From IMG/VR virus record IMGVR_UViG_3300009609_000052, positions 1-26,199 of that record: a stretch of 26,199 nt of DNA. One strand, written 5' to 3'. The notes under the pieces were generated by a model. It had not been told where the DNA came from. It saw only the letters and a list, made by a program, of their open reading frames with translations, and did not search any database. Below, one piece after another: positions 4,321 to 22,922 of the stretch. A program made the translations under genes and the position numbers. Numbering within the stretch: position 1 is the first letter of the stretch; the number at the start of each line of letters is the position of its first letter. Source of the stretch: a virus.

Positions 4321-5138
4321 GAGGCCGCCTCAGTCCACGCTTCCTCGACGGGGATGGCTAGGGTGAGCCGATTCCACATCCCGCCCACCGCCTGCCGCGA
4401 CACGTCGCCGTCATCGGTCTTCTTCAGGTAGACCGGCTTCTTGAAGTCAGTATCGTCGCTGTCCACCTGAAAGATGAACGGGCGCAGCAGGTAGGCATGC
4501 GAGTCGAGGAAGGTCATCACCGGGGCCATCGCCGTTCGGTTCCCGCCAGCCTCTCCGAACCCAAGAACGAACCGATGCACCTGCCCGCGCAGCACGGCGC
4601 CCGCGAAGTGCCCGCCCTCCGTGCGCTCAGAAGCCCCGCCGACCTGCTTGAGATACGGATCGATCTCGGGGTTGAGATACTCGGTCAAGGTCGTGCGCGA
4701 CCCGATGAACAGCTCCCCAATGAACGGCTTGTTGGTGAAGTTGCCGCCCTTGGCGAGCACAATCCTCCAGCGCCGGAGGTTCGCGGCCTCAGTGAACGTC
4801 TTGAGGTCCACATCGCCATAGGTAGGCGTGTAGGCCGCTTGACGAACAGTCGTCGGCGGGTTGGCCCCGGCCGAAGTGTCGGCGCGCAGTTCAACCGTCC
4901 CCGCCTCACTCGTGATGTTGTGGTTGACGAGCCCGATGGTGTCGGCAGTGCCCGTGTCGGCGCCGAGGTCGATGTCGATGTTGATGCCGGTGACGAGCGT
5001 TCCGGACTTCCACATCTTCCAGGGCAGGAAGTCGAGCAGGTACGAGGCGGCATAGTCCCCGGTCTCGGTGGACGAGGCGACAACCGTGGCCCCGGTGTCG
5101 CGGAGAATCGAATCGTAGAGAATGACAGGGAATGCCAT
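4317..5138 (-). CDS. Putative distal tail protein (Dit-like)
   Basis: 273 aa, starting at the ATG at 5138, which shares one base with the stop of the tape measure gene, and ending in a 4-nt overlap with the hub gene. The N-terminal half is a discoidin/galactose-binding-like beta sandwich: ILYDSILRDTG, then WKMWKSGTLV, then INIDIDLGADTGTADTIGLVNHN. The C-terminal half (AGAVLRGQVHRFVLGFGEAG, later FIFQVDSDD) alternates strands as expected for a ring-forming tail protein. In siphophages the gene directly after the tape measure normally encodes the distal tail ring to which tip proteins attach. No clear sequence family was recognised, so the call rests mainly on position. Confidence 0.65.
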   Translation of the reverse strand: MAFPVILYDSILRDTGATVVASSTETGDYAASYLLDFLPWKMWKSGTLVTGINIDIDLGADTGTADTIGLVNHNITSEAGTVELRADTSAGANPPTTVRQAAYTPTYGDVDLKTFTEAANLRRWRIVLAKGGNFTNKPFIGELFIGSRTTLTEYLNPEIDPYLKQVGGASERTEGGHFAGAVLRGQVHRFVLGFGEAGGNRTAMAPVMTFLDSHAYLLRPFIFQVDSDDTDFKKPVYLKKTDDGDVSRQAVGGMWNRLTLAIPVEEAWTEAAS

Positions 5139-6421
5139 CAGGCAGGCACCACGGCCAACTGAGAGCCGCCAACGCCATCGGTGATCGCCTTCACCACGCC
5201 GCCGGTCAATTCCCTGACGCGCACGTCCGACAGCGTGCCCTCAAGGTAGAGATGAATCTCCGGCCGAACCGGCTGCGCCTGGTTGACCTGTTGGAATCGT
5301 CCCGCGTTGACCGCCCGGTCCGCGCCCGTCCCGCCCGCCCCGAACGCCCCGGCTCCCTTGAACGCGGCGGTGGCGAAGTAGAGTCCAGCCGCGATCTTGT
5401 GCAGGACCGCGCCGCGATAGTCGTAAGACGCAGCGGACGCGGCAGCGGCGGCAAGTTCAAACATTCCCCGAATGGTCGCCTCGGCCGCGATGATGGCGGC
5501 GCTAATTCTCGCGGCCGTGCCCTGTGAGACGATCCCGGACTGAGCCGCAGCGGCCACCGCATCACCGGCCGCGCTCGCCACCGCGCCATACTCCGCGTAA
5601 TGGTTGGTCAGTTCAACGATGACGTTCCCCTGCTGCTCCCAGAACTCGATCTGTCGCTCTTGAAGCTCAAGCGCCTCCTCCCACCGGGCGAGCGCGTCAT
5701 CGTCTGGAATCTCCGGCCATGCGTATTGCAGCGGCTCTCCAAAGCCGACGCCCTGGTCGATGCGCTGCGCCAGCGGCGGCCCCTGAATCTTCGGGTTGAA
5801 TCCGGCAGTGGGATTCTTGGATAGGAAATTGTTGCGCTCCTCGACCGCCTTGAGCGCCTTTTCCCAATCCGAAACGGCCCACGGGTCGGCAATTCCCGGC
5901 TTCGCCTCGGTCGGAAGCGCCTTGTCAATCAGTCCGCCAACGCCCTCGAGCGCCTGCTTGAACAGGTTGTAATTGCTTCCCCACAGAAGCGTCCCGATGA
6001 TTCCGAACGCGGTCGGCCCCTGGTAGTTCTGCCCCTTGGCGACTCCAGCGAGACGCTCAAGTCGGTTGAGCCACGGCGTCGTGCCTTCGAGTGCGGCGGT
6101 GATTCCAAGCAGGTCCGCGAGGAGATTCGCGGTGCGCTTCCCGGCCGCATCGGCGCTCTTGGAATAAGCGGCCCATGCGTCACTCGACGTAATGACGGCC
6201 GTGGCGAGTTCGCGCAGTTGGAAGATGGCGCCGGCTAGCGTGAAGCCACCGAGGAAGGCGGCGGCGGCGGATCGCATATTGAACATGCGCGCCGTGAACG
6301 CATCCGAGGTTGTCTTCGTCTGCGCGTCGAGCTTCTTCTCCGCACCGACAAGGTTATTGACCGAGCGCACCGCTCCCTGCTCGTCAATCGTCAGGGTTGC
6401 GACTGTGACGCGCTCGGCCAT
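5138..6421 (-). CDS. Tape measure protein (short)
   Basis: 427 aa. The ATG directly follows the TAG of the chaperone extension and lies in the same frame. It starts with a strand segment (RVTVATLTIDEQGAV) and an Ala/Lys-rich helix (NNLVGAEKKLDAQTK). Hydrophobic stretches follow: RSAAAAFLGGFTLAGAIFQL at about 50-70, then a long Ala/Gly-rich helix at about 290-375 that includes AAIIAAEATIRGMFELAAA. This is the layout of tape measure proteins, which fill the tail lumen and set tail length. With the usual rule of about 1.5 angstrom per residue, 427 residues would give a tail of roughly 60-65 nm. It sits immediately downstream of the frameshifted chaperone, the diagnostic position. Confidence 0.85.
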   Translation of the reverse strand: MAERVTVATLTIDEQGAVRSVNNLVGAEKKLDAQTKTTSDAFTARMFNMRSAAAAFLGGFTLAGAIFQLRELATAVITSSDAWAAYSKSADAAGKRTANLLADLLGITAALEGTTPWLNRLERLAGVAKGQNYQGPTAFGIIGTLLWGSNYNLFKQALEGVGGLIDKALPTEAKPGIADPWAVSDWEKALKAVEERNNFLSKNPTAGFNPKIQGPPLAQRIDQGVGFGEPLQYAWPEIPDDDALARWEEALELQERQIEFWEQQGNVIVELTNHYAEYGAVASAAGDAVAAAAQSGIVSQGTAARISAAIIAAEATIRGMFELAAAAASAASYDYRGAVLHKIAAGLYFATAAFKGAGAFGAGGTGADRAVNAGRFQQVNQAQPVRPEIHLYLEGTLSDVRVRELTGGVVKAITDGVGGSQLAVVPA

Positions 6422-6784
6422 CTACTTCCTCGCGGCTTCCCGTTCCCGGTGGAGAATCTGAATCTTCCGAATCATCCCCGGCCACTCCGGCACAGGGACT
6501 TCACGCGCCTCCAGAGTGAGGCGAACCCATCCCGCATCAAGAACGAATACCGGCCGCTCAGCCATCGGCGCGAGGTTGACGATGGCCGCGCCAAGGTCAG
6601 TCGTGAAGATGTTGAATGCCTCACGGTTGCCTTCGTCCAGGGCGTTGAGTGCGTCGGCAACGCCGCACTTGGAGCAGTCAGGAAGCCCGGAGCGCCGAAC
6701 GCCTCCGCCGTGAAGGCAACAGCGCGGGGATATGCGGGAGAAGAACTGCCGGGCGCATGTCTCAAGGTTCTCCTCCTCTAGCCG
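6422..6784 (-). CDS. Tail assembly chaperone C-terminal (T) extension, reached by -1 frameshift
   Basis: This 120-codon frame plus stop has no upstream start codon of its own. In its frame, codons run from CGG CTA GAG after the slip site, and the first ATG is only about 47 codons from the end. It opens exactly at the -1 frame after the heptamer A AAA AAC in the overlapping upstream gene. The fusion would be about 239 aa (119 from the upstream gene plus 120). The extension has an acidic start (LEEENLETCARQ), then a possible zinc knuckle with CCLHGGG and CSKCG, then a helical tail rich in E and R. This corresponds to the T part of lambda gpGT: a scarce, longer chaperone that recruits the tape measure and tail tube subunits. 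The TAG at 6424-6422 directly abuts the tape measure ATG. Confidence 0.85.
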   Translation of the reverse strand, partial: RLEEENLETCARQFFSRISPRCCLHGGGVRRSGLPDCSKCGVADALNALDEGNREAFNIFTTDLGAAIVNLAPMAERPVFVLDAGWVRLTLEAREVPVPEWPGMIRKIQILHREREAARK

Positions 6785-7140
6785 TTTTTTTCAGCCTCGA
6801 AGTTGGCCGCCTCGTTCGCCGCGTTGATGACGAAGACCCGGAAGTCCGGAGTCGCATCCCACAGCATGCGGCGGTCCTCTTTCGACTTCCCGAACGGCTC
6901 ACCGTCCTTCGTGAGCCCTTCGATGTCGGTAACGATCTCGTCGCAGTAGAAGTCCCGCAGCGCAATCGGGTCCACCTTGTCTTCGGTCCGGTTGTGCCCC
7001 CGGTACTGCGGCTTGACGATGCGCTGTGCGCGGCGCTCCATCTCCCCGGAGAACGGGCGCAGACGCACGGCGATCTTGCCGCGCCACATCACGACGGCGG
7101 TTCCGTCGCCGTTGACCATTAGTTCGTTGAGCTCCATCAC
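6778..7140 (-). CDS. Tail assembly chaperone (G-like, shorter product)
   Basis: 120 aa, located between the tail tube gene and the tape measure. The protein is a small alpha/beta protein: MMELNELMVNGDGTAVVMWRG strands, then a helical part with SKEDRRMLWDATPDF, ending ANFEAEKNG. The last codons are GAA AAA AAC GGC TAG, which form a canonical -1 slippery sequence immediately before the stop. By analogy with lambda G/GT, most ribosomes stop here and make the short chaperone, and a minority slip to make the fusion. An ATG ATG pair begins the gene; the first is used here, and AAAAGGGGG 5-6 nt upstream supports it. Confidence 0.88.
   Translation of the reverse strand: MMELNELMVNGDGTAVVMWRGKIAVRLRPFSGEMERRAQRIVKPQYRGHNRTEDKVDPIALRDFYCDEIVTDIEGLTKDGEPFGKSKEDRRMLWDATPDFRVFVINAANEAANFEAEKNG
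6784..6790 (-). other. Programmed -1 ribosomal frameshift site (A AAA AAC)
   Basis: On the minus strand the sequence is GCT GAA AAA AAC GGC TAG, so the heptamer A AAA AAC fits the X XXY YYZ rule with the zero-frame codons AAA and AAC. Slipping back one base continues into CGG CTA GAG and then 120 open codons. The zero-frame stop is two codons after the heptamer. A purine-rich AGGAGGAG lies just downstream. This is the conserved expression mechanism of long-tailed phage chaperones upstream of the tape measure. Confidence 0.9.
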
Positions 7141-7149
7141 TACCCCCTT

Positions 7150-8109
7150 TTAGGTTAGAACCACCTGCACTTCGTCGTTCCCGGCGTTGGCCGAACGCAG
7201 ACACTCGAAGGCGGCCTGCCAGACCAGAGCCCCGGCGCGGTCGGCGTGGTCGACTCCGGTAAACCGGATGTTTGGAGCGTTGAGCGCCACCTTGTTCCCT
7301 GCGGTCGCCACCGGAGTCATGGCCAGCGCCCCGAGAGTGTTGGCCGTGATCCTCGTGTAGATGTTGAACGTCGAGAGCTTCTCGGCCTCGATGTCCACGG
7401 TGCCGGTCGGACGCCTCGAGGTGATCTGCGCCGTGAGCCCGCCGGTCGCGCTGTTGGCGTTCGGGCGGTATGCGATCTCCTGGCCCATGTCGATCTCCAG
7501 CGTCTCGAAGGCCAGAGTCGATCCGTGGATTACCGCCGCATCGTTGAGGAACGCGGTCGGGGCCGTCGTATCCCAGGTCGGGGCCGAGAGAATCGTGGAG
7601 TCGGACGGGGCCGCGATGATGCCGGTGGCCGAGACGTTCATCCGGCGCAGGTCGCCCGCCTTGAACGTGAACTTCGCGTTCGCCTGACAGCCCGCGAGGC
7701 GGTGCAGCATGTCCTCGCCACCGGCGCCTAGGCCGGGGACGATCCACGACATCGTGTAGTACGCCTCCGGGGCGGCCGGGGCGTAGGTGACCGACGTTGC
7801 CCCGACGATGGTCTCGGAGAACCCGCACATCATGATCAGGTCGCGCCACTCGGGGGCCGTGCCGGCGGCTCCTGAGCCCTTCATCACGACATCGAACGAG
7901 ACGGTCCCGGTCTGGACGCCGGAGGCCCCCGGCGACTTGCTGAACACGCCGCCGCCCATGCTGTTGTTCGGGGCGTTGCCGTAGGTCGGTGTGAACTTGA
8001 AGTTCTCGACCAGCACCATGTCGGCAGCGGCCGGGGTCTCGGCGGTTCCGGGGACGGCCTCGGCCTCGCAACAGACTTGCGCCTCGTTGAGCCTATACGG
8101 CTTCGCCAT
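7150..8109 (-). CDS. Major tail tube protein
   Basis: 319 aa, immediately upstream of the chaperone pair. It begins AKPYRLNEAQVCCEAEAVPGTAETP, the common start of tail tube proteins that mention an entry state and a PGT turn. Repeated beta-strand segments follow: TGTVSFDVVMKG, NAKFTFKAGDLRRMNVSATG, and FETLEIDMGQEIAYRP. The order tail terminator, small protein, tail tube, chaperone, tape measure is standard for long non-contractile tails, and no sheath gene is present. The ATG at 8109 lies inside the end of the preceding small gene, so the two are translationally coupled; an SD-like GGAGG occurs about 5 nt upstream. Confidence 0.85.
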   Translation of the reverse strand: MAKPYRLNEAQVCCEAEAVPGTAETPAAADMVLVENFKFTPTYGNAPNNSMGGGVFSKSPGASGVQTGTVSFDVVMKGSGAAGTAPEWRDLIMMCGFSETIVGATSVTYAPAAPEAYYTMSWIVPGLGAGGEDMLHRLAGCQANAKFTFKAGDLRRMNVSATGIIAAPSDSTILSAPTWDTTAPTAFLNDAAVIHGSTLAFETLEIDMGQEIAYRPNANSATGGLTAQITSRRPTGTVDIEAEKLSTFNIYTRITANTLGALAMTPVATAGNKVALNAPNIRFTGVDHADRAGALVWQAAFECLRSANAGNDEVQVVLT

Positions 8110-8254
8110 CTGTGGCCTCCTGGTGCTTCTTCACCTTCGGCGGCGCCGGTGGGGTGATGATGTACGAGCGGTTCGCCCGCGCTTCTGCGGGATCGGAAAT
8201 CTGGATAGGCTCCGGTCGGTTGCGCGCCGCCGGCTTGGGGTCAGAGGCTTTCAT
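8093..8254 (-). CDS. Small Pro/Ala-rich protein between tail terminator and tail tube genes
   Basis: 53 aa from ATG 8254 to TAG 8095-8093. It overlaps the upstream gene by 14 nt and the tail tube gene by 17 nt, which leaves no room for anything else and argues that it is translated. The sequence is basic and low-complexity (KPAARNRPEP near the start, then ITPPAPPKVKKHQE) and ends in an acidic tail. No family was recognised. Small unstructured proteins at this position are seen in many siphophages, but no role can be assigned. Confidence 0.6.
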   Translation of the reverse strand: MKASDPKPAARNRPEPIQISDPAEARANRSYIITPPAPPKVKKHQEATDGEAV

Positions 8255-8765
8255 GCGTCACCACCTTCAACGGCACGACGGCCGAGAGGATGAATTGCCC
8301 CTCCCCCTGCTCCGGGTTGAGGCGGTAGGTCATGGGGTTCGCGCCGATGCGGTGGACTCGCGTGACGGTCTCCGTCAGGGTCGGGTACTTGACGGTCAGG
8401 ACGCGGCAGATGGCGCGGGCGTAGCGCATCACGCGGCGCTTGGTGAGCGTCGGATTCTCGTTGCCGGAGTCCTTGAGCGTGACGGAGACCGCGACGGAAT
8501 GCTCGTCAACCATGCGCCCCGGCGAGTTCGTGATGGTGTCCGTGATGAGCGCCTCGCTGTCGTCTGCGTTGACGTTGATATACAGGACATGCTCCATCTC
8601 GGCGGACGGGTTCTCGTACTCGTAGTACGCGGCGTTATCCACGTCCGCGAGGGTGATCGTGTCTGCCATCTCGGCGTCGATCAGGTCCAGCTCTGTCGGT
8701 AGATAGAGTTGGAGCGTTGCGACAATCCGAGTCACGGCGTACTCCGCGCCCTTGATCGCCATCAC
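8241..8765 (-). CDS. Putative tail terminator / tail completion protein
   Basis: 174 aa from a GTG at 8765, or 173 aa from the adjacent ATG at 8762; neither has a strong SD. The start AVTRIVATLQLYLPTELDLIDAE and the long beta hairpins (HVLYINVNADD, HSVAVSVTLKDSG, FILSAVVPLKVV) fit the small alpha/beta tail terminators of the lambda gpU type, which cap the tail tube and join it to the head. It sits directly after the gpG-like completion gene and before the tail tube gene, the expected position. No diagnostic motif is present, so the assignment is positional. Confidence 0.6.
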   Translation of the reverse strand: MMAIKGAEYAVTRIVATLQLYLPTELDLIDAEMADTITLADVDNAAYYEYENPSAEMEHVLYINVNADDSEALITDTITNSPGRMVDEHSVAVSVTLKDSGNENPTLTKRRVMRYARAICRVLTVKYPTLTETVTRVHRIGANPMTYRLNPEQGEGQFILSAVVPLKVVTHESL

Positions 8766-8780
8766 ACGTCCGGCGCAGAC

Positions 8781-9281
8781 CTACAGATGCCGTAGCACCT
8801 GACGAGTCCGCTTGATGTAATACGAGGCGAAAGCCTCGGTGAACTGCTTGAGGTCTGCGGCGGTCTTTGCAAGGACGCTCCGCCTAGGGAGCACCTGCTT
8901 GCCTTCGCCGGTCCCGGTCTCGTGGCGCCACGCCTTCGTGGAGGCGACGCCGAACAGATAGGTCCACGGCCGAACCCACTCGCGGATGTGATTGGCGCTC
9001 GCCGGCAGCGTGAATCGGTCGCGCATGTCACCGCTGAATACCAGGATGCGGCGGCCCGGCTTGACCCTGCGCTTCCATGCGGCGTAGCCCTTAGAGAGCG
9101 GCTTCCATGCCGAGCCGGTGGACACGCCCTCTGTCGTGAATGCGCGGCGAGCCTGCTGAGAATGAACACGGTCCAGCGCCACGAGGATCGGACCCTGCCT
9201 CTCGCGGTCGGAGATCAGGAGTGCCGCGGTACGCTTCCGGAGCCGCTCGAGTTCCCGCTTGTTGGGCGTCATCCTGACCAT
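8781..9281 (-). CDS. Virion morphogenesis / tail completion protein (Mu gpG-like)
   Basis: 166 aa. The frame stays open far upstream, but the start is placed at ATG 9281, which overlaps the stop of the preceding gene (TGATG); the upstream extension is Arg/His/Gly-rich, typical of an antisense artefact. The pattern SAWKPLSKGYAAWK at about 57-70, ILVFSGDMRDRF at about 79-90, a WTYLFG segment and VLPRRSVL near residue 130 matches the phage virion morphogenesis family (Mu gpG type: a W..L...Y motif, then an L..SG.L.DS motif, then a PRRP/R-like segment). These proteins act at the head-tail junction during assembly. A second ATG at 9272 is possible. Confidence 0.8.
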   Translation of the reverse strand: MVRMTPNKRELERLRKRTAALLISDRERQGPILVALDRVHSQQARRAFTTEGVSTGSAWKPLSKGYAAWKRRVKPGRRILVFSGDMRDRFTLPASANHIREWVRPWTYLFGVASTKAWRHETGTGEGKQVLPRRSVLAKTAADLKQFTEAFASYYIKRTRQVLRHL

Positions 9282-10099
9282 CAGTAGAGGTCCGACATGG
9301 AGGTCACGATGCCGAGAGAGACCGGCGCCGTCGTGACGGTGGGCGCCGTCGTGTCGCCGCTCAGGATGTGGTCGGTTGACAGGGACGCCAGAGAGCCGCG
9401 AATCTCCTGCTCGATGAGGCCGGCGCCAACCTGCCCAAACTCTCCGGTGCCGCCGACATAGGAGGTCCAGAGCGCCTGCAACCATTCCGCCTTGCCGGCC
9501 AACGACCCGCCACGCGACGAGAAGGACGCCGCCATGACGCAATCCCACGCCGCCCCGATGGCGTTCGCCTCGCGCAGCATGTCCTGCAAGCGCGAGCCGC
9601 TGACCACCGTAACCGGCGTGACCTCAAAGCCGTACCGCGTACAGATCGACATGAGGATCGCGGCCCGCGTCTCCGCGAACCCGGCCGCCTCGGTACTGGA
9701 CGGGGCCGTAGCGCTTGTGATGCTCTGCTGCATCCATCGCTCGATGTCCGACTCGGAGCAGAAAGCATTGGACAGGGACGGCACGAACACCGACCCGGCA
9801 GTCACAACGTCGAAGTCCCACTCCATGCGCCGGCCGAGCGGAGCGTCCCCACCGAGCTCGTACAGCACCAGGTGGTACTGCCCTGCCGTGAGCGGAGTGA
9901 CCGTCACGTTGTACGACCCGGTGACGCCGATCTCCGGAAGCGTGACCGCCTCGGATGCCGCGGCGAACCCGGAGCCGGTGTTCAGGTGCAGCGTCAGGGT
10001 CACGTCGGCGGGCGCAGTGATGCCGGTGACGGCGGCGCCGTTCCCGTCCAGCACCGTCCACAGCCGGCGGATCGTCTCTCCGATGACGAACTGGCTCAT
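9281..10099 (-). CDS. Head-tail adaptor with N-terminal Ig/BppU-like domain
   Basis: 272 aa. The start ATG at 10099 overlaps the upstream stop by 4 nt; the frame continues upstream, but that part is low-complexity and belongs to the antisense of the preceding gene. Residues about 1-110 form a beta-sandwich (FVIGETIRRLWTVLDGNGAAV, then VTLTLHLNTGSG, then GSYNVTVTPLTAGQYHLVLYE) of the type found in baseplate BppU and other Ig-like modules. Residues about 130-272 (FCSESDIERWMQQS then TRAAILMSICTRYG) resemble the helical gp6/gp15-type adaptors that sit under the portal. The combination in one chain is unusual. Function is inferred from position between capsid and tail completion genes. Confidence 0.6.
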   Translation of the reverse strand: MSQFVIGETIRRLWTVLDGNGAAVTGITAPADVTLTLHLNTGSGFAAASEAVTLPEIGVTGSYNVTVTPLTAGQYHLVLYELGGDAPLGRRMEWDFDVVTAGSVFVPSLSNAFCSESDIERWMQQSITSATAPSSTEAAGFAETRAAILMSICTRYGFEVTPVTVVSGSRLQDMLREANAIGAAWDCVMAASFSSRGGSLAGKAEWLQALWTSYVGGTGEFGQVGAGLIEQEIRGSLASLSTDHILSGDTTAPTVTTAPVSLGIVTSMSDLY

Positions 10100-10641
10100 G
10101 CCGTCATCACCCCGTAGTCCTCGCTGACCGAGTGGGCGCGGCTCAGAAGCGCGGCCCGGTACGACAGCTCGACGCTGATGAGAGAGACCCGCGCGGTGCC
10201 GATGGCGCCGCTGAGCATCCGGAGGCACGGCTGCATCGGGAGCAGGTCATCCGCCGCCCACGCGGAGGCGTTGAACGGGTTGGTGGAGAACGTCGTTTCC
10301 TCGTCGTCGTACTGCGCGCCGGGGATGACGGTGGTCATCGAGAAGGCCGTCGCGCCGCCACGGTAGAACCCGACCTCGACCTCGGGGTTCCCGGAGTTGA
10401 GCTTGATCGACGTGCGAATCGTGACGCTCGTCGGGATGAGGTTCTCCGACCCGTCGAAGAAGCGGAACGACATGATCCCGGCCGTCCCGATTTGCCGCGG
10501 CAGGACGATGTAGGAGGTGTCGCCGTCGTCATCGGAGTCGTTCGACTCGTCGATGGCGTCGTAGCCGAACGTTCCCCCGACGATGGAAGACCATCCGGCA
10601 AGTTCACCGTTGGCCTGCACGGGGAGGTTGATCGTCGGCAT
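10096..10641 (-). CDS. Virion structural protein, beta-rich, unknown
   Basis: 181 aa, first gene after the major capsid gene and its hairpin, with GAGG 4 nt before the ATG. It is acidic and strand-rich: YDAIDESNDSDDDGDTSYIV, then MSFRFFDG, TIRTSIKLNSG and EVEVGFYRGG. The alternation looks like a jelly roll, as in fibre or head-decoration proteins. Its stop overlaps the adaptor start by 4 nt. No named family was recognised. It could be a head fibre, a decoration protein or a head-completion factor; the sequence alone does not decide. Confidence 0.6.
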   Translation of the reverse strand: MPTINLPVQANGELAGWSSIVGGTFGYDAIDESNDSDDDGDTSYIVLPRQIGTAGIMSFRFFDGSENLIPTSVTIRTSIKLNSGNPEVEVGFYRGGATAFSMTTVIPGAQYDDEETTFSTNPFNASAWAADDLLPMQPCLRMLSGAIGTARVSLISVELSYRAALLSRAHSVSEDYGVMTA

Positions 10642-10659
10642 GTCGCCTCGGGATGGAAA

Positions 10660-10691
10660 GGGGCGGGAGCCCCGATGCGGACCCCCGCCCC
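10660..10691 (-). terminator. GC-rich hairpin after the major capsid gene (weak terminator or attenuator)
   Basis: Just after the capsid gene stop, the minus strand folds into an 8-bp perfect stem GGGGCGGG/CCCGCCCC with a 16-nt loop, followed by CTTTCC. The T-tract is short, so it may attenuate rather than terminate. It could reduce expression of genes beyond the highly needed capsid protein, or protect the capsid mRNA 3' end. Confidence 0.5.
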
Positions 10692-10698
10692 GCGTGGC

Positions 10699-11664
10699 TT
10701 ACGACCAGACCTGACGGATGGTCCCCTTCCAGTCCCACGGGATAAACTCGAAGCGAGCGTAGGAGTGGATCAGGGCCGTCTGGTTGAGCCTCCAGGCGTC
10801 GGAGTCCGTGTTGATGTTGTCCACGACCTCCCAGTCCTTGTTCTTGAGCAGCGCGACCGGGTAGTAGCCTGGGCGCTTGCAGAAGATGTAGTGCCGGGTG
10901 GCCGGAACGAACGGAGATGAGACGATCTCGAACATCCCCTTGAACCGTCCGGTCGCGCCCGAGACATCGAGTCCGGGGTGCGCCATGTTGGAGGTCCCGA
11001 GCGAGATGTTGTAGAGCGGCTCGAACTCGACCGGGATGAGCATCAGGTACTGCTTGACCGTCGCGTTGACCGGAGTCAAGGCGTCGTCGGTGAACAGGCG
11101 CAGAAGCGCAACGTTCAGGTCGAGCTGCGCCTCCAGTTCGGCAACCGTCGGCTTGGTGCCGGTGGCCGCCGCGCTGGTGTCGGCGTTGTCCTGCGCCGTG
11201 CCGCTCTCGGTGTGCGTTGTGCTGTAGAGCGCGTCACCGTCGTATCCGAGGGTGGCAGCGTCGAGGATGGTGCCGACGAAACGGCGATCCATGAACAGAA
11301 GCGCCTTGCGTGCCAGTTCGGCCGCCTTCTCGGCGGCGAGCCCGGGCTGTGTTTCCACGACGCTTCGCGGGATCTCGATGGTCTGCTCCCACTCCACGAC
11401 GCTCCCGGTGACCTTGTAGTCCATGAGCTGCTTGGCCTGCCGTCCGCCTCCGGTGCCACTCCCGTTCAGGGCAGTCGAAAGCTGCCGCGGCTCGGGAGCC
11501 CCACCCCACGCCGTATAGGTCGCGGTGAGGTCATCCTGATCGACCGGCTTGCAGAGCTTGCCGTAGGTGTAGTCCGGCTCCTCGGCGAGGATGGTTCCGT
11601 AGAACGAGTCGGCGATCCCGTGCTTGATCGCCGAGTAAACCTCTGAGTTGATCGGGAATCCCAT
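10699..11664 (-). CDS. Major capsid protein (Mu gpT-like)
   Basis: 321 aa, with SD AGGAGA 5 nt before the ATG. It follows the cement gene and precedes a strong hairpin. The pattern fits the Mu-like major head subunit (gpT) with an HK97 fold: an N-terminal arm (INSEVYSAIKHGIADSFYG), the segment WEQTIEIPRSVVETQ, a helix with AAELARKALLFMDRRFVG, then DGDALYSTTHTESG. That last segment corresponds to the D(G/K)xxLFSTxHP motif of the family. It ends with VVDNINTDSDAW and a WDWKG loop. In Mu phages the gene order protease/scaffold, cement, capsid is the same. Many copies build the icosahedral shell. Confidence 0.88.
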   Translation of the reverse strand: MGFPINSEVYSAIKHGIADSFYGTILAEEPDYTYGKLCKPVDQDDLTATYTAWGGAPEPRQLSTALNGSGTGGGRQAKQLMDYKVTGSVVEWEQTIEIPRSVVETQPGLAAEKAAELARKALLFMDRRFVGTILDAATLGYDGDALYSTTHTESGTAQDNADTSAAATGTKPTVAELEAQLDLNVALLRLFTDDALTPVNATVKQYLMLIPVEFEPLYNISLGTSNMAHPGLDVSGATGRFKGMFEIVSSPFVPATRHYIFCKRPGYYPVALLKNKDWEVVDNINTDSDAWRLNQTALIHSYARFEFIPWDWKGTIRQVWS

Positions 11665-11673
11665 CGTCGTCTC

Positions 11674-12132
11674 CTAGGCGTTGGTGCCGCGGGGACTGCG
11701 CGCCCCGATGCCGATGTCGAACCAACCGGATGTCCCGGTCACGTCGGGCTGAACGAGGGTTCCGATCTGCCCGGTGGTCCCGGCCGCGAGCTGGATGATG
11801 TCGGCCGGGTTGTCGGAGGCGGCGGTGCAGGCCGCATATCCGGTGTTCGCCACGTTCGCGTCCGCCGCGTAAGTCGTGGCGAACCACATGATCGCGTCCA
11901 AGATGACCCAGACGTTCCCGGCGGTGCCGGTGAACGACCTGCGCTGGTCACAGACGCCGACGAACTCCGAGGCATCGACAGAGGTGACGACGGCGAGCCC
12001 GGTTCCGGCGGCGCAGGTCACAAGAGCGCCCCGGTAGAACTCGTCGGTGATAGCGCCGGTCTTCCACTGGCGCTTGATCGGATTGCGCGCCGGGTCGTAG
12101 ACGACGACGGCATTGTCTGCAAGAGCGGCCAT
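11674..12132 (-). CDS. Capsid cement / head decoration protein (DUF2190-like)
   Basis: 152 aa, between the scaffold gene and the capsid gene. It is a Gly/Ala/Thr-rich beta protein with FYRGALVTCAAGTGLAVV, EFVGVCDQRRSFTG and GNVWVILDAIMWF segments. That resembles small capsid decoration proteins of the DUF2190/lambda gpD functional class, where each chain carries short beta hairpins that clip over capsid threefold axes. The start at 12132 is 1 nt after the upstream stop and an AAGGGG sequence is found upstream. Function is inferred from position and composition. Confidence 0.65.
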   Translation of the reverse strand: MAALADNAVVVYDPARNPIKRQWKTGAITDEFYRGALVTCAAGTGLAVVTSVDASEFVGVCDQRRSFTGTAGNVWVILDAIMWFATTYAADANVANTGYAACTAASDNPADIIQLAAGTTGQIGTLVQPDVTGTSGWFDIGIGARSPRGTNA

Positions 12133-12133
12133 G

Positions 12134-12691
12134 TCAGTTCCCCTTCGCGGCGGCCTTGAGACGCCGGTATTCGCCGAGGTCGCGGGCCTTGGCGGCGACA
12201 GTCACCTTCTCCGGGTCGATCCCGCGAGACCGGAGCCAGTCCTTGTCCTCGGACGAAAGCTGCGCTACCGGGCCCTCCGCCGGAGCGCCGGACGCGAACG
12301 TCTGGTTGAGGCGCACCACCGGATCGGTCTGCTCCACCTGGTACTTGAGGAGCTTGAGGTCGCCCCCGAAGCGGGACGCCTTGAACCACGAGAGCGTCCC
12401 TTCGTGGCCTCCCTTGTTGTAGTTGCTGCACCACGCGGCCTTGAGGGTGCCGCGCTGGAGACCGTTGAACACCAACTCGCGGATGTCCATCGCCTCCAGC
12501 TTCCGCTCCGTGAGGGCAAGGCGGGTGAGCGCCTCGTCCTTCTCGGGGTCCTTCGTCACGTTGTCGAGCTGCTCTCGAAGACTGAGGATCTCGGCCTTGA
12601 GCTGCACGACCTCGTTGTCCTTCGCCTTGATCGCGGCCTCGTGATCGGCCTCGGCCTTGGCGAGGATCTGCTCGGTGTTCGGCTCGCTCAT
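12134..12691 (-). CDS. Internally started scaffold protein (Mu gpZ-like)
   Basis: 185 aa from an in-frame ATG at 12691, codon 158 of the protease gene. The product begins SEPNTEQILAKAEADHEAA and has a predicted coiled coil at about residues 5-45 (heptad-like Leu/Val with Glu/Lys), followed by a conserved-looking C-terminal part with LVFNGLQRGTL and SYNKG-like segments. In Mu, gene Z is encoded as the in-frame 3' part of gene I and makes the internal scaffold; the same arrangement is indicated here by a strong Shine-Dalgarno placed exactly before this ATG. A protein-level test is needed to prove separate expression. Confidence 0.75.
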   Translation of the reverse strand: MSEPNTEQILAKAEADHEAAIKAKDNEVVQLKAEILSLREQLDNVTKDPEKDEALTRLALTERKLEAMDIRELVFNGLQRGTLKAAWCSNYNKGGHEGTLSWFKASRFGGDLKLLKYQVEQTDPVVRLNQTFASGAPAEGPVAQLSSEDKDWLRSRGIDPEKVTVAAKARDLGEYRRLKAAAKGN

Positions 12692-13162
12692 CGCGGCCTC
12701 CTTTTGGGCTGTGAGGTAGATCACGGCTTCGCCGCCCTTGTTCCGCTGCGCCGCGATGTTGAGGTCCGAAAAGAACGGGGTGTTCGTGATGAGCAGGTGA
12801 TCCAGCACCCACCCGACCGGCTTGCCGTGGAGGTCCCGACCGCTGAAGGCGCCGATGCTCGCCCCGCGGAAGGTGTCCGCAAGAACGGCGGCGGCGGCCT
12901 CACCCATGAGCTTGACGCGGGCGATCAGGTCCATCCCCTTGCGGTAGATGTCCTCCACCCACCCGTCAGCCGGCCGGTCGGCTCGCTCAGGCCCCATGAG
13001 GTGCGGGCCACGGAACAGGACCGGCACCTGACGCTTGAGAGCCGCGAAGTTCGTCACCATCGCGTCCATGTCTTCGGTGGTGAGGTCGAACTCCTGCGCG
13101 CCGTTCTTGAAGTTCATCCCGGCGTGGGCGACGACGATCTCCTTGACGAGGACCGGCTCCAT
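12134..13162 (-). CDS. Prohead protease (Mu gpI-like) with C-terminal scaffold region
   Basis: 342 aa from ATG 13162, which overlaps the stop of the MuF-like gene by 1 nt; the upstream extension of the frame is low-complexity and excluded. Residues 1-140 follow the Mu I/assemblin-type protease plan: VAHAGMNFKNG, EDMDAMVTNFAAL, a VPVLFRGPHLMG segment with His54, GWVEDIYRKGMDLIARV, RGASIGAF with the likely nucleophile Ser102, and LLITNTPF. Residues from about 158 onward form a charged coiled coil and an Asp/Leu-rich tail, the scaffold. The protease would mature the prohead and degrade the scaffold. An in-frame internal start gives the scaffold alone (see the separate entry). Confidence 0.85.
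   Translation of the reverse strand: MEPVLVKEIVVAHAGMNFKNGAQEFDLTTEDMDAMVTNFAALKRQVPVLFRGPHLMGPERADRPADGWVEDIYRKGMDLIARVKLMGEAAAAVLADTFRGASIGAFSGRDLHGKPVGWVLDHLLITNTPFFSDLNIAAQRNKGGEAVIYLTAQKEAAMSEPNTEQILAKAEADHEAAIKAKDNEVVQLKAEILSLREQLDNVTKDPEKDEALTRLALTERKLEAMDIRELVFNGLQRGTLKAAWCSNYNKGGHEGTLSWFKASRFGGDLKLLKYQVEQTDPVVRLNQTFASGAPAEGPVAQLSSEDKDWLRSRGIDPEKVTVAAKARDLGEYRRLKAAAKGN
12692..12705 (-). promoter_or_regulatory. Strong internal ribosome binding site for the scaffold start
   Basis: AAAAGGAGG lies 5 nt upstream of the in-frame ATG at 12691, inside the protease gene. A perfect AGGAGG inside a coding sequence with optimal spacing to an in-frame ATG is unlikely to be accidental and decides the second start of this gene. 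Confidence 0.8.
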
Positions 13163-13629
13163 CACGCGGCGCTCCGGTAGATGTAGAGGCACCGACACTG
13201 CTCGCCGCCGTCGCAGTGGTTCGGGGGCATGTCGTTGAAATAGTCGGCGCTGTTGAACGTGTAGGTCTGGCCGTCTAGCCCAACGCACGGAGGGCAGGAG
13301 TTCTCATCGAGAATGGCCGAGCGCACGACGCCGCCGATGCTGTCGGCCTGTGACTGCGCCTCGAGGTTCCGGCCGAGCGCGAATGCCTCGTGCGTGGCCT
13401 CGCGGCCGGTGCGCTCAAGCGAAGTCCCGAACATCGCCTCCAGGTCCGAGGTGACGGCGTTCGCTAATGCCGGCCCGGTCAGACCGCGCTGCGAATAGTC
13501 CGCGATGAGGCGGGCGGCTTCGTTCTGGAGGCGGGAGACTATCTCGGCGAGATCGATGGAAGCGCGAACGCGGATCGCCTCCTCGGTGACGATGGAGGCT
13601 TTCGGTCCCTTGGGTGGGGCTTGTGCCAC
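13162..13629 (-). CDS. MuF-like head morphogenesis protein, short C-terminal form
   Basis: 155 aa from a GTG at 13629. The start cannot lie further upstream because an in-frame TAG occurs in the preceding hairpin. Only the C-terminal part of the usual MuF protein is present: a helical region (ASIDLAEIVSRLQNEAARLI, then LERTGREATHEAF) followed by the Cys/His domain VRSAILDENSCPPCVGLDG, with C112, C115, H138, C139, C145 and C147. That domain matches the SxLDxxTCxxCxxLDG...PPxHxxCRC signature of the Mu F family. These minor head proteins enter the capsid and act with the portal. The missing N-terminal helices seem to be those encoded in the -1 frame at the end of the portal gene (13741-14037), so the ancestral protein was probably split by the intervening stop and terminator-like hairpin. 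Confidence 0.8.
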   Translation of the reverse strand: MAQAPPKGPKASIVTEEAIRVRASIDLAEIVSRLQNEAARLIADYSQRGLTGPALANAVTSDLEAMFGTSLERTGREATHEAFALGRNLEAQSQADSIGGVVRSAILDENSCPPCVGLDGQTYTFNSADYFNDMPPNHCDGGEQCRCLYIYRSAA

Positions 13630-13655
13630 TCTGCCGCCGACTCGCGCAGGCCACG

Positions 13656-13696
13656 AAAAAAGGGCCTAACGAGGTGACGGCCCCGTCAGGCCCTTT
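13656..13696 (-). terminator. Rho-independent terminator-like hairpin between portal and MuF-like genes
   Basis: On the minus strand, AAAGGGCCT (13696-13688) pairs with AGGCCCTTT (13667-13659) around a 20-nt loop, and the run continues to TTTTTT ending at 13656. The stem is a perfect 9 bp with a U-tract, so it reads as an intrinsic terminator in the direction of the structural operon. On the plus strand the T-tract is only CCCTTTG. It stands in the largest gap (111 nt) of an otherwise tightly packed operon. It may act as a partial terminator. Confidence 0.65.
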
Positions 13697-13740
13697 GTTC
13701 GCGTCCCGGAAGCCGGCGGGGTTCGATGCCCCGACGACGG

Positions 13741-14037
13741 TTAACGCTTGAGTTCGTCCTGCACCTGCTCGCGCCCGAAGTCCCGGACGCCCTTCAAGGC
13801 CCCGATGAGGCGCTGTCGAGCCGCCCGGCCGGAGCCGATAACGCGAGATGTTGGGGCCAGAACGTCCCGGATGTCAATACCCTGTGCAACGGCGCGTCCG
13901 ATTTTCCGGATCTGGGCGTCCGCATGATCGGTCAGGATGCGGGCGTAGTCGGCCGCGAAGGCGTCGAGCCCGGAGTCGATTTCATCCAGGGCCAGGACGC
14001 GGGCCTCCTCGTCGGTCGGTTCCCGGCGTCTGGAGTT
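13741..14037 (-). CDS. Portal C-terminal / MuF N-terminal extension in the -1 frame
   Basis: 98 codons plus a TAA at 13743-13741 that have no ATG, GTG or TTG start in frame; the frame opens after a TGA a short way upstream, just ahead of the A9 run. The encoded sequence is protein-like: EEARVLALDEIDSGLDAFAA, then ILTDHADAQIRKIGRAVAQG, then DIRDVLAP and GALKGVRDFGREQVQDELKR. Amphipathic helices of this kind form the region between DUF935-type portals and MuF proteins. The zero-frame continuation of the portal (34 residues after LLEEKK) is by contrast Pro/Thr/Arg/Ser-rich and looks like out-of-frame coding. The region is therefore probably translated by a -1 slip or after transcriptional slippage on the A9 run, giving a portal of about 582 aa. 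A miscalled homopolymer (A10 read as A9) would give the same picture. Confidence 0.65.
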   Translation of the reverse strand, partial: NSRRREPTDEEARVLALDEIDSGLDAFAADYARILTDHADAQIRKIGRAVAQGIDIRDVLAPTSRVIGSGRAARQRLIGALKGVRDFGREQVQDELKR

Positions 14038-15488
14038 TTTTTTTCCTCCAGCAAGCCGAACCGCCGCGAGTTCTCATCGTCCCGCCCTTCCTGATCCGTC
14101 CCCGCGCCGTCCGGACGCCCTCCGATGCTAGGCGTGAGCGACTTGCGCGCCTCGGCCCACTCGGCTTCGTTCATCACCGGGTAGCCAAGCCGCTTGAGCA
14201 CCTCGTTCGCCAGCTTCATGTTCGGAGGGATGACCTGCTTCTGCACCATGTCACCGATCAGCGGGATGTTGTCGAGCTGCTCGGTCGGGGAGATGCGCGA
14301 CCCGGTGATGCGCGCATACTCCTTGATGTTCGGGAAGTTGAGATCCTGCAATTCCTCGGAAAGCCCCGGCAGCGAACCGACGCCGAAGTTGATCGCGTCC
14401 TCCAGCCGAATCCGGATCGAGTCGGCGTGAATGAACGCCCCGGTGGACATGCTCGATGACGCCGCCCGGCTTCCGCTCTGGGTGTTTCCGCTCTCCAGAT
14501 ATTGCGTGATGCCGACCCGCGCCACGTCAGCGGCCTTGCCGTCAAGGATCGTCTGCGCCTCACGGACGTTCCCGTCAGTCGTCAGGAACTTGACCTCCTC
14601 CTCATTGCCAATGACGATGAACGCGAGTTCCTTGGACCCATACCGGAGATGCTTGAGGATGGAGACGAGCTGGTCTCGCTCCTTCGTCCCGCCCGTTGAC
14701 GCCAGCTTGGCGATGGGGATGCCGACGCCGCGGTTCTGGAGGTCGATGAGGTCGATCTTCTCGGCGAGCTCGCGCATCTTCCACGGCTTATACATCGGCC
14801 GGATGAAGGCATTGCCCTCGAAGTTCGGGCCGCGGCGGTCCCACGGAACGATGAACAGATCGCCGGCCGGACGGAACTCCCGCACCTGACGCCCGGTGCC
14901 GTCCATGAACGAACGGTTGACGCCTATGAGATTGTCTGACCCGTCGATGACCCAGGCGTTCCCCTGCTCAAGACTGCGCGGGTGGAGCCACTTGATCTCG
15001 GCGTATATCTGGCGCCCGTTCACCGGCACAACGCGCTTGCCGAACATGGCGAACCCGTGGATCAGGCACCCGAGCATCTCGTAGAGCCGCTCCGTCCACG
15101 AGGTCAGGCACCATAGGGCGCGATCCCCTTCCCGCAGAAGGTTCGCGGCGAGAAGATCCTGCTGCTCGGCGGTGCCGCCCTCCACCTTCCATCGCACCCC
15201 GGAGATGAGCGCCGATGAGATGACGTTCAACTGACCCCGCACGACTGGATCGTTCGCCATCCGCTCCAGAATCGGCAGGCGGCCGTGCAGGGTAAACAGC
15301 TCGGGGACGTATTCCTCCTGAATCGTGTGCAGGTTGAGCTTGATCCCGGAGCCGCCGAAGACGCTGCGGCCCATCTCGACGCCGACCTGAGACCGGAGAT
15401 TCATAATCTCGCGGTTGAGGCGCTCGGCCTTCTGTGCCTTCTGAATCTTCCCCTGCCGCGCGTTAGCCGCCGCCTGCTGCCGCGTCAT
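13932..15488 (-). CDS. Portal protein (DUF935 / Mu gp29-like), zero-frame form
   Basis: 518 aa in the uninterrupted frame. The ATG at 15488 overlaps the stop of the preceding 83-aa gene by 4 nt, and GAGG lies 8 nt upstream. The features fit the Mu-like portal family: an N-terminal Lys/Arg/Gln-rich segment, LFTLHGRLPILERMANDPVVRGQLN, the VRWKVEGG strand, a helix with RLYEMLGCLIHGFAMFGKRV, the WLHPRSLEQG segment, and the stem/crown region with RELAEKIDLIDLQNRGVGIP and IADLASTGG-like turns. The ring of 12 portal subunits is the channel for DNA packaging and tail docking. The final 34 residues of this frame look artificial; the likely full-length product switches frame at the A9 run (see the separate entries). 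Confidence 0.85.
   Translation of the reverse strand: MTRQQAAANARQGKIQKAQKAERLNREIMNLRSQVGVEMGRSVFGGSGIKLNLHTIQEEYVPELFTLHGRLPILERMANDPVVRGQLNVISSALISGVRWKVEGGTAEQQDLLAANLLREGDRALWCLTSWTERLYEMLGCLIHGFAMFGKRVVPVNGRQIYAEIKWLHPRSLEQGNAWVIDGSDNLIGVNRSFMDGTGRQVREFRPAGDLFIVPWDRRGPNFEGNAFIRPMYKPWKMRELAEKIDLIDLQNRGVGIPIAKLASTGGTKERDQLVSILKHLRYGSKELAFIVIGNEEEVKFLTTDGNVREAQTILDGKAADVARVGITQYLESGNTQSGSRAASSSMSTGAFIHADSIRIRLEDAINFGVGSLPGLSEELQDLNFPNIKEYARITGSRISPTEQLDNIPLIGDMVQKQVIPPNMKLANEVLKRLGYPVMNEAEWAEARKSLTPSIGGRPDGAGTDQEGRDDENSRRFGLLEEKKTPDAGNRPTRRPASWPWMKSTPGSTPSRPTTPAS
14036..14044 (-). other. A9 slippage site near the portal 3' end
   Basis: The minus strand reads GAG GAA AAA AAA ACT CCA, that is TGGAGG followed by nine A and CTCCA. 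One additional A, or a -1 slip on A AAA AAA, moves reading to AAC TCC AGA and opens the 98-codon extension. TGGAG and CTCCA can pair around the run. Runs of nine A are known to cause transcriptional slippage, for example in Thermus dnaX. A sequencing error in this homopolymer is the main alternative. Confidence 0.6.
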
Positions 15489-15736
15489 GACACGAGCCTC
15501 AGAGTTCTAGTGGTCGCCGTCTCCAGCGGGTCAACCCGCCCGGTCCACTCGCGACCGTCGGCCCACTTGACGTGCCGATAGTACCGCACTCGCGGAGATC
15601 CGGGCTTCAACCCGAACGTTCCGACCATCTGGACGATGTCGTCAACCCGACTAGAGCCCACCAGCCGGCCGTATCCCTTGATCTCGGCCATGTAGCCGTC
15701 CATCGTCACCGGACAGTCGCGCTTCGGAATGTTCAC
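15485..15736 (-). CDS. Small protein between terminase and portal genes
   Basis: 83 aa from a GTG at 15736 that overlaps the terminase stop as GTGA; its own stop overlaps the portal ATG by 4 nt. The longer frame upstream of the GTG lies inside the terminase gene and is less likely. The protein is strand-rich and basic: DGYMAEIKGYGRLVG, then RVDDIVQMVGTFGL, then RVRYYRHVKWADG and WTGRVDPLETATTRTL. It may be a small beta-barrel. No family was recognised, and its position does not correspond to a well-known conserved gene. Tight overlap on both sides supports it as a real gene. Confidence 0.65.
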   Translation of the reverse strand: MNIPKRDCPVTMDGYMAEIKGYGRLVGSSRVDDIVQMVGTFGLKPGSPRVRYYRHVKWADGREWTGRVDPLETATTRTLRLVS

Positions 15737-17301
15737 AGCACCGTCCCCATGATGTCCACCTCGAACGATTCCGGCGGTTCTCCCTGCCCGAACCACCCTG
15801 AGCCGCCAGCATTCTCCAACACCGCACCGCGATTCAGGTCCGCGAAGTTGACCGAATTGATCATCGGCAGCAGGTCCATCGCCAAGCGCCGCAAGACCGC
15901 CGAAACGTCGTCATGCGCGCCCTTCCGCTTCGCCGCCTCGATCTTCTTTCCCTTCCACCGGAGGCCGGTCAGGTCACGCGCGATCTCCTCCATATCCGGC
16001 AGCTTCATCTTCTGCGCCGTCATCACGGAGAGGAGATTCCGGTATTCCTTGAGCTTGTTCTCCTCGTTCACCGGCCGCTCGATGAACCCAATCCCGTGCT
16101 TCGCGTACTCATTCTTCAGAGGGATGTCGCAGAACTGGTCACCGACCACCGCGTCAACCCCGTACGCCCGAAGGATCGGCACCTGCTCCGCGACCACATC
16201 CTCGTCCGACAGCGGCCGCTCCGGCTCCGGCTTCCAGATCCGCAGCGCCGACAGCACCACGCTCTCTCCGTCCAGCCGACCAATCCCCAACGGGAAGAAG
16301 TCCTGCTTGAACGCCGCGTCGATGTGCGCGACGTAGTGAGCACCCGTCACCGGCGCCTCCAGGTCACGCCCGCGCTCCGTACACGCCTCCACCATCGCCC
16401 GCGTGAACTTCTTGGACTGCGCCCCGGTGTGCCACTTCGCCTCGTACTCCCGCGGATACGACTCCGGGTCCGCGATCCGCTCCTCCTCCAGAAACTCCAG
16501 ACTCACCGAAGGATTCAGATACCGCGTCGGCACCTCATGCATCACGAGCTGCCGCGTCTGAAACCGCCGCTTGTAATCGTCATAGAACACCCCAATCTCA
16601 TCGTACGGCGTCGAGGTCTTCAACAGAGGCACCTTGTACCCCCGGGACTTCATCGTCGCCCTGGTCGGCCGCACCGCCCGCAGAATCTCCACGTCCGCGT
16701 TGTACGCCCCCTCCTCCAACTGCCAGTGACCGATCTCGTCCAGCACAATCGCAATCGTCGTCAGCCCACGCACCGCCACCTTCTTGCACGGCATGCACTT
16801 GACCACGACCCGATTCGCCAGCCGAATCTCCTCAGCCGTCACCGCCTTGCTCTGCGCGGGGAGATCCTCGAACACCTTCCACCCACGCCCCGCAAGAATC
16901 CCGAACTTCGCCTCCGTGTAGTCCCTGACGATCCGCGCCTGCTTCTCGTTCTGCGCCACCACGATCCCGTAAGCCGTCTCGCCCGGACTCAGGTGCTCCG
17001 GGTTGAACATCACGCACTCGTACGCCAACACGTTCCCGCCGATCTTCTCTCCCTTGCCTGACCGACGACCGAACCCGAGACTGGCCTCGTCATACCCACC
17101 CTTCCGCGCCGCCCTCTGCTCATGCATCGCCAGAAACGCCGCCATCTCCTCCCGCGTCATCTCCAGCCCGTAGATCGCCTTTAGCACAGCAATCTGAGCA
17201 ACAGAGAGAGACTTGTCCCCGAGAAAATCATCACCCGTCACGAACTCGATGATGTCGCGGGGCGGACACGGTGCAGCAGGAGAAGAACGGCGGGCAGGCA
17301 T
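15733..17301 (-). CDS. terL: Terminase large subunit
   Basis: 522 aa, with SD GGAGG 7-8 nt before the ATG at 17301. It is the packaging motor: an N-terminal ATPase and a C-terminal RNase H-like nuclease. A Walker A-like loop GRRSGKGE is at about 78-85 and a Walker B IAIVLDE at about 183-189. A motif III-like LLKTSTPYDEIG follows at about 226-237. Nuclease acidic residues are placed in VAHIDAAF (about Asp328), VVGDQFCD (about Asp388) and GAHDDVSAV (about Asp464-465). Length and domain order are normal. It would dock on the portal and translocate DNA into the prohead. No convincing small subunit was recognised; the unknown gene at 17686-18168 is a positional candidate. Confidence 0.9.
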   Translation of the reverse strand: MPARRSSPAAPCPPRDIIEFVTGDDFLGDKSLSVAQIAVLKAIYGLEMTREEMAAFLAMHEQRAARKGGYDEASLGFGRRSGKGEKIGGNVLAYECVMFNPEHLSPGETAYGIVVAQNEKQARIVRDYTEAKFGILAGRGWKVFEDLPAQSKAVTAEEIRLANRVVVKCMPCKKVAVRGLTTIAIVLDEIGHWQLEEGAYNADVEILRAVRPTRATMKSRGYKVPLLKTSTPYDEIGVFYDDYKRRFQTRQLVMHEVPTRYLNPSVSLEFLEEERIADPESYPREYEAKWHTGAQSKKFTRAMVEACTERGRDLEAPVTGAHYVAHIDAAFKQDFFPLGIGRLDGESVVLSALRIWKPEPERPLSDEDVVAEQVPILRAYGVDAVVGDQFCDIPLKNEYAKHGIGFIERPVNEENKLKEYRNLLSVMTAQKMKLPDMEEIARDLTGLRWKGKKIEAAKRKGAHDDVSAVLRRLAMDLLPMINSVNFADLNRGAVLENAGGSGWFGQGEPPESFEVDIMGTVL

Positions 17302-21895: not shown

Positions 21896-22188
21896 CCTGC
21901 ACCCGCTGCGGCAGTTCTGAGATACCCGCCAAGATGTTCGTAAGCCTTGGCTTCACGCGCTGCCGCAAGTGTGCAGGGGCGCTGTGTCAGGAGCTGCTCG
22001 GCTACATCCGGGATTTCGAGGCGAGGTGGCCGAAGGTGAAGAAGCCTAAGAATCCCGAGAAGCCGATAGGGGGTCCGCTGCACGGGTACTGCTGCCGGAA
22101 CTCCATGTGCCAAGCGAAACTGCCAGATTGGAAGCCCGGCGAACCGGCCTACTGCGGGCTGTGCGTCCAAGAGGGGAAGGCGTCGTGA
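21892..22188 (+). CDS. Zinc-finger-like protein
   Basis: 98 aa from ATG 21892 (ATGA overlap); the longer upstream frame is a shadow. It has TCTRCGSSEIPAKMF then FTRCRKCAGALCQE near the start, a basic linker (WPKVKKPKNPEKP), and YCCRNSMCQAKLPDW then YCGLCVQEG at the end. Two four-cysteine sites are therefore plausible, one at each end. Its stop overlaps the methyltransferase GTG (GTGA). Function unknown; the methyltransferase neighbour suggests shared DNA work, without proof. Confidence 0.65.
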   Translation: MTCTRCGSSEIPAKMFVSLGFTRCRKCAGALCQELLGYIRDFEARWPKVKKPKNPEKPIGGPLHGYCCRNSMCQAKLPDWKPGEPAYCGLCVQEGKAS

Positions 22189-22922
22189 AGCCTTACTACC
22201 AGGACTCGGCGGTGACGATCTACCACGGGGACTCGCTCGAGATCCGCTCTGGTCTTGAATACCAAGCCATCCTGAGCGACCCGCCGTGGGGATCAAAGAC
22301 CGCCTGCAACGCGCAGCGATTCACCCGCACCAACTCTCCGTGGTGGACCAACGTAGACAACTCCAAAGTCGTCGCCCACCAGGACATCACCGGAGACGCC
22401 AAACCGTTCGACCCTTCACCGTGGGTTGACCGTCCGGCAATCCTCTGGGGTGCAAACCACTACGCTAGCCGACTGCAGGACAGCGGTGGGTGGCTCATCT
22501 GGGACAAGCGCGACGGAGCCGAAGACCTCGCAGCGAAGGGCTGGCCTCTTGGGGAGGCCGAACTCGCATGGACGAATGTGCGTGGTTCGACTCGTGTGTT
22601 CCGCAATCTGTGGGTCGGACTGCTACGCAGCAGCGAGCGCGGCGACTTCTACCACCCAACCCAGAAGCCTACCTCTCTCATGCGCTGGTGTGCAGAGTTC
22701 CTGCCTGCCGGCCTCATCCTAGACCCATTCATGGGCTCCGGAACCACCCTGCGTGCCGCGAAGGATCTCGGCAGGAAGGCCATCGGAATCGAGATCGAGG
22801 AACGCTACTGCGAGATCGCCGCCAAGCGCATGAGCCAGGAATGCCTGCCGCTGGCGCCGCGCGTCCAGCCGGTTCAGCTCGTCATGGCCGAAAGCCGAAA
22901 GGGGCCAGCCCGTGAGGACTGA
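22185..22922 (+). CDS. DNA methyltransferase, beta-class, N6-adenine type
   Basis: 245 aa from GTG 22185 overlapping the upstream stop. The catalytic motif IV DPPW is at 32-35, preceded by YHGDSLE (about 13-19) and followed downstream by HPTQKP at about 157-162 (motif X) and LDPFMGSGTTLRAA at about 179-192 (motif I, SAM binding), then KAIGIEIEERYCEIAAKR. Order IV to I is that of beta-class amino-methyltransferases. No restriction endonuclease gene is nearby, so it is an orphan enzyme, perhaps protecting phage DNA or marking it for regulation. The recognition site cannot be derived. Its stop is 8 nt before a -35 box. Confidence 0.88.
   Translation: MKPYYQDSAVTIYHGDSLEIRSGLEYQAILSDPPWGSKTACNAQRFTRTNSPWWTNVDNSKVVAHQDITGDAKPFDPSPWVDRPAILWGANHYASRLQDSGGWLIWDKRDGAEDLAAKGWPLGEAELAWTNVRGSTRVFRNLWVGLLRSSERGDFYHPTQKPTSLMRWCAEFLPAGLILDPFMGSGTTLRAAKDLGRKAIGIEIEERYCEIAAKRMSQECLPLAPRVQPVQLVMAESRKGPARED

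Follow-up and report, generated by a model that had tools for sequence, protein, structure and literature searches.

A conserved run of nine A in a Mu-type phage portal gene as a probable programmed recoding site for two portal forms

The portal gene of the phage in IMG/VR virus record IMGVR_UViG_3300009609_000052 is very probably recoded in a programmed manner at a run of nine A (A9), either by slippage or by ribosomal frameshifting. The 26,199 bases of this record are referred to below as the window. One gene would have two decodings: a 518-aa portal that ends at the zero-frame stop and, from a fraction that changes to the -1 frame at these nine A, a 582-aa portal with a helical tail of 98 residues. 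An earlier note on this DNA had raised a recoding or slippage site giving these two forms, and the proposal is supported by the conservation of both the A9 and the -1 open reading frame in two diverged phages. Among phage genes, those for tail chaperones and coat proteins are familiar sites of programmed frameshifting, and a portal gene is an uncommon place for a built-in slip; the literature searched contained no report of a programmed frameshift in a portal gene. Annotation pipelines would truncate the gene and lose the extension in all such phages.

The portal open reading frame occupies 15488..13932 on the minus strand and encodes 518 aa. It belongs to PF06074 (Portal_Mu) with 56.3 bits against a curated cut-off of 23.9, and its likeness to the phage Mu-type portal covers the portal core, residues 73–400. 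Residues 1–481, encoded ahead of the run codons (14046..15488, minus strand), are common to both forms. The run itself (14036..14044, minus strand) has exactly nine A, spans portal codons 482–485 and is read in the zero frame as GAG GAA AAA AAA ACT, with the heptamer A_AAA_AAA in frame. Only one other A or T run of at least seven is present in the 26.2 kb, namely an A7 in the tail chaperone gene. Beyond the run, the zero frame supplies the tail of the 518-aa form with its stop (13932..14035, minus strand), whereas the -1 frame continues for 98 codons plus TAA (13741..14037, minus strand), from AAC at 14037 to the TAA at 13743–13741, and would give the long portal form peptides such as VLALDEIDSGLDAFAADYAR. 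The sequence thus confirms the earlier description of a 98-codon -1 frame opened by the run and closed by TAA 13741. The accompanying statement that this frame has no start codon holds for a usable start, but an ATG, GTG or TTG does exist; the first lies 247 nt beyond the run start, close to the end of the frame, which makes an independent start at a useful length impossible.

At the A9 run, the coding signal leaves the zero frame and continues in the -1 frame. Codon log-odds, for which ten other gene stretches of the window served as the training set, were scored over stretches of 97 codons, with means of 0.70 ± 0.11 for true-frame gene stretches (minimum 0.44) and −0.68 ± 0.13 for off-frame stretches (maximum −0.38). 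Past the run, the -1 frame scores +0.40 and the zero frame −0.39, in line with the earlier impression of an out-of-frame zero-frame tail beside a protein-like -1 frame; over the overlap up to the zero-frame stop, the values are +0.54 and −0.38, respectively. GC content by codon position is in accord with a frame switch at the run. The openness of the frame is weak evidence, because an off-frame is open for at least 98 codons at 9% of random points in the window; the strong evidence is the codon signal together with conservation.

Three independent lineages were found, consisting of the window and two diverged uncultured phages, L026 (3300037755_000444) and L041 (3300032516_000505). An alignment of eight portal sequences was too divergent for searching; L026 was found with a two-sequence alignment of the window and Rhodococcus phage Whack, and an alignment of the window and L026 then found L041. 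By best tblastn segments over the part that precedes the run, the portal of L026 is 51% identical to that of the window (53% by global alignment) and the portal of L041 about 61%. Identity to the portals of named phages is about 20–26%. When the portal, capsid, terminase and MuF proteins were each used singly to look for close relatives, the scans returned identical contigs and one distant locus only, and a search of the genome collection for relatives gave no match. Contig 3300012167_000045 matches 9,076 bases of the window (7963–17038), A9 included, at 100% identity, and contig 3300011440_000103 is 100% identical over 9.4 kb (window 3751–13135), ending short of the run; judged by these identities, the window phage is the same virus present in several metagenomes.

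An exact A9-CTC is found at the matching portal position in 3300012167_000045, L026 and L041. The alignment with related portals, proposed in the earlier note as a check, places a continuing -1 frame past the A9 in both L026 and L041, so that the run and the alternative frame of a slippage site are both conserved in diverged homologues. The -1 frame opens after the run with NSRRREPTDEEARVLALDEID in the window and with NSYWREPTPEESRIVALAEVD and NSRWREPTPEESRILALDQIE in L026 and L041, respectively, and the three phages share the block N-S-x-x-R-E-P-T-x-E-E straight after the run. Over about 98 residues, the window extension is 38% identical to that of L041 (E 6e-17) and 30% identical to that of L026 (E 1e-8, database size set to 1e6). 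Since the similarity in the -1 frame starts at the first codon past the run, the switch is located at the run. L026 has a -1 frame stop at the run itself and the frame opens only there, which blocks entry to it from upstream. The zero-frame tails after the A9 measure 34, 23 and 23 aa in the window, L026 and L041. Synonymous changes over the overlap, counted for the -1, zero and third frames, are 6, 3 and 1; 5, 4 and 0; and 6, 3 and 1 for the three pairs, all small numbers, with the -1 frame highest in every pair. The TGGAG/CTCCA flank remarked on earlier is a 6-nt palindrome in the window and is absent from L026 and L041. An A-run extension of the window's kind was seen in none of the distant portal relatives examined.

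Codon usage indicates that the run is under selection. Lysine is encoded by AAG at 165 of 167 codons in the window's genes and by AAA at two, and the other Lys-Lys pairs are AAGAAG in eight of eight cases. With this codon usage, the probability of GAA AAA AAA for Glu-Lys-Lys is 1.8e-5, and an A9 arose in 0 of 2000 synonymous recodings of the window's genes; the lysine bias and the recodings together argue for selection on the run. Despite the AAG usage the run is retained in three lineages, as expected of a functional slippery run but not of an error, a decayed gene or an ordinary gene.

These observations bear on several other explanations of the -1 frame. The extension might be a separate protein begun inside the frame, by reinitiation or at a rare start codon, and possible starts are present in L026 (GTG at +49) and L041 (ATG at +76, overlapping the zero-frame stop at L041 3090–3097). 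We consider this quite improbable, given that no usable ATG, GTG or TTG is available in the window's frame and that the N-S-x-x-REPTxEE block precedes any such start in all three phages; with this conserved block ahead of both starts, a fused product is the simplest reading. As a separate matter, coupled reinitiation at the L041 ATG could yield a distinct C-terminal piece. A phase-variable tract, in which mutation of the run length toggles the extension, would agree with the mutability of A9 runs. It is very improbable, as the run length is equal in four of four contigs from three lineages and thus does not vary as a phase-variable tract should, and no other run length between the window's flanks was found in the viral collection.

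A homopolymer miscall or assembly error, with a single 582-aa open reading frame as the real gene, had been entertained in the earlier note, and long A runs are a classic error spot. The data disfavour it to the point that it is barely credible: the A9 recurs in two assemblies of the window phage as well as in the diverged L026 and L041, which come from other metagenomes, and an ordinary gene would not keep AAA for the run lysines where usage is 99% AAG. The A9 sequence is not a sequencing error. We give almost no credence to a damaged gene, in which a true frameshift mutation struck a portal C-terminus that was no longer needed. The complete Portal_Mu match does lie within the zero-frame product, but the codon bias and amino-acid conservation that the -1 frame retains across three lineages argue that this frame is still selected.

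Programmed recoding at the run could reach the extension frame through A10, through A7 (two A lost) or through a -1 ribosomal shift, and A10 and the ribosomal shift give an identical protein. We favour RNA-polymerase slippage as the main mechanism, with reasonable but limited confidence: one extra A in the mRNA would change the reading to GAA AAA AAA AAC, and the shift in vivo would be mainly transcriptional. Slippage sites call for an A or T run of at least nine within a coding region, as the A9 at 14036–14044 provides, and counterselection of A/T runs in bacterial coding regions is evident from nine in many genomes (PMC1088944). The A9 run of Thermus dnaX gives about 50% slippage (PMC1088944), and the A11 run of Citrobacter tssM gives about 20–25% by transcriptional slippage (PMC4256274). 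Thermus dnaX, IS elements and tssM resemble the window in having at least nine A in a coding region, a conserved second frame and two C-termini (PMC1088944, PMC4256274); they differ in that here the gene encodes a phage portal and slippage is predicted from sequence.

The alternative route, -1 ribosomal frameshifting on A_AAA_AAA instead of polymerase slippage, would leave the 582-aa product unchanged and competes on mechanism only; we hold it to be possible but rather doubtful, and the two mechanisms may also act side by side. The heptamer has the X_XXY_YYZ form in the zero-frame phase, as GA[A AAA AAA]ACT in the window and L026 and CA[A AAA AAA]ACT in L041, and the window phage also possesses a canonical A_AAA_AAC tail-chaperone site. 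A small stem-loop on the 3' side of the A9 (14005..14035, minus strand), common to the three phages, is a tentative candidate for a frameshift stimulator: 93% of its cells are paired against 37–53% with partners slid, in three sequences only, and two pairs are altered on both sides. Against the ribosomal route, however, the stem begins directly at the run and not 5–9 nt further, its energies give z-scores of −1.4 to −1.9 only, and the upstream GGAGG stands at differing distances among the phages, so that the SD spacing is not conserved. In addition, nine A rather than seven are conserved in all lineages, and A_AAA_AAA is a far weaker ribosomal site in E. coli than A_AAA_AAG (PMC5009743).

The extension, whichever route produces it, is a predicted two-helix hairpin. 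AlphaFold2, run with the three-sequence alignment, places helices at 9–51 and 56–97 with a mean pLDDT of 75.7 and a pTM of 0.42. Pfam and PHROG searches with the extension gave no significant family match, and the best match in a structure comparison with viral models was no better than E 0.77. Profile searches of the PDB matched 7rdr (a designed repeat protein) and SalC, but both matches were put down to composition and set aside. Comparison by hmmsearch and hhalign with known MuF N-termini, including those of Arthrobacter phages, was not significant; going by its position and helical form, the extension may correspond to the MuF N-terminal module. MuF proteins normally have 100–200 residues ahead of the part covered by the 155-aa MuF gene of the window, and the PHROG matches of this gene begin at profile positions 110–194 and later.

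The MuF-like gene (13162..13629, minus strand) has a GTG start and encodes the C-terminal MuF domain. It scores 25.6 bits (E 2e-5) against PF04233 (Phage_Mu_F), under the curated cut-off of 29.6, and 28.3 bits against TIGR01641, under the cut-off of 39.65; it is a clear relative of MuF/gp7 although it falls below these family cut-offs, and it is 42% identical to its counterpart in L026. Its codon log-odds are +0.50 and in the window it shares its frame with the extension, with 111 nt between them that score as non-coding in the shared frame. This interval holds a strong terminator-like hairpin (13634..13719, minus strand), with 16 unbroken pairs inside a longer stem and U6 on the 3' side (dG −65.9, z −4.7). 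L041 has a hairpin of similar sequence at the matching place before MuF (about 3372–3453, z −7.7), and L026 has one just before its MuF gene (about 3304–3358, z −4.7). Rfam families and tRNA offered no explanation for the window hairpin, and the hairpins look like intrinsic terminators amid the head operon. The earlier note had described the extension as the missing portal/MuF linker. As a join this description fails, because the extension has a stop of its own, the terminator-like hairpin follows, and the MuF gene starts separately. The common frame of extension and MuF in the window had suggested that read-through might fuse the two; this was likewise rejected, as MuF lies in another frame in L041 and about 775 nt off in L026, with three small open reading frames between. 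These three separate the extension from the MuF gene at L026 2550–3281.

In the proposed arrangement, some of the 12 portal subunits would have the tail and bring it inside the capsid, where it would perhaps replace the N-terminal portion of a minor capsid protein of the MuF/gp7 type, the MuF C-terminal domain being supplied by the separate gene behind the terminator. We propose tentatively, and with somewhat less than even confidence, that slippage at the A9 sets the number of the 12 subunits with a covalent MuF-like tail, giving a mixed ring in which recoding replaces the usual non-covalent portal–MuF contact. In SPP1, MuF (gp7) gets into the capsid by portal binding and in few copies (PMC6316719); a tail attached covalently through recoding would achieve the same as the SPP1 portal and gp7. 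If this is true, a two-length portal ring would be a simple way of placing a few internal domains at one vertex.

Portal–MuF fusions are found in Microbacterium phage clusters EA3, EA5, EA8 and EB (PMC7302621). These fusions, together with those of MW202444 and two IMG/VR loci (L035 and L036), resemble the long form in that portal and then MuF material are present in one polypeptide, but they have one open frame and a whole MuF, whereas the window would gain a 98-aa piece by frameshift and keeps the MuF C-terminal domain separate. L035 (3887–6007) and L036 (2874–4994) encode distant Mu-type portals of 706 aa with a complete MuF domain in frame. The tail chaperones G/GT, T7/T3 gene 10 and the Listeria A118/A500 coat proteins are alike in having a C-terminal extension on a fraction of a structural protein (PMC5009743, PMC6316719); those frameshift cases concern tail chaperones, a tail tube and coat proteins, whereas the window case concerns a portal.

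The surrounding genes form a head module on the minus strand. The terminase lies at 17301–15733, a probable protease (PHROG head maturation protease) at about 13288–12134 and the major capsid protein, with a weak gpT match, at 11664–10699; the tail genes follow, also on the minus strand. At the end of the 7140–6778 open reading frame is the A_AAA_AAC slippery heptamer (6785–6791, minus strand), and a long -1 continuation of this frame reaches up to a tape-measure-like gene, the usual tail-chaperone frameshift. The half of the window encoded on the opposite strand includes an N6/N4 DNA methylase gene (PF01555) at 22107–22922 on the plus strand.
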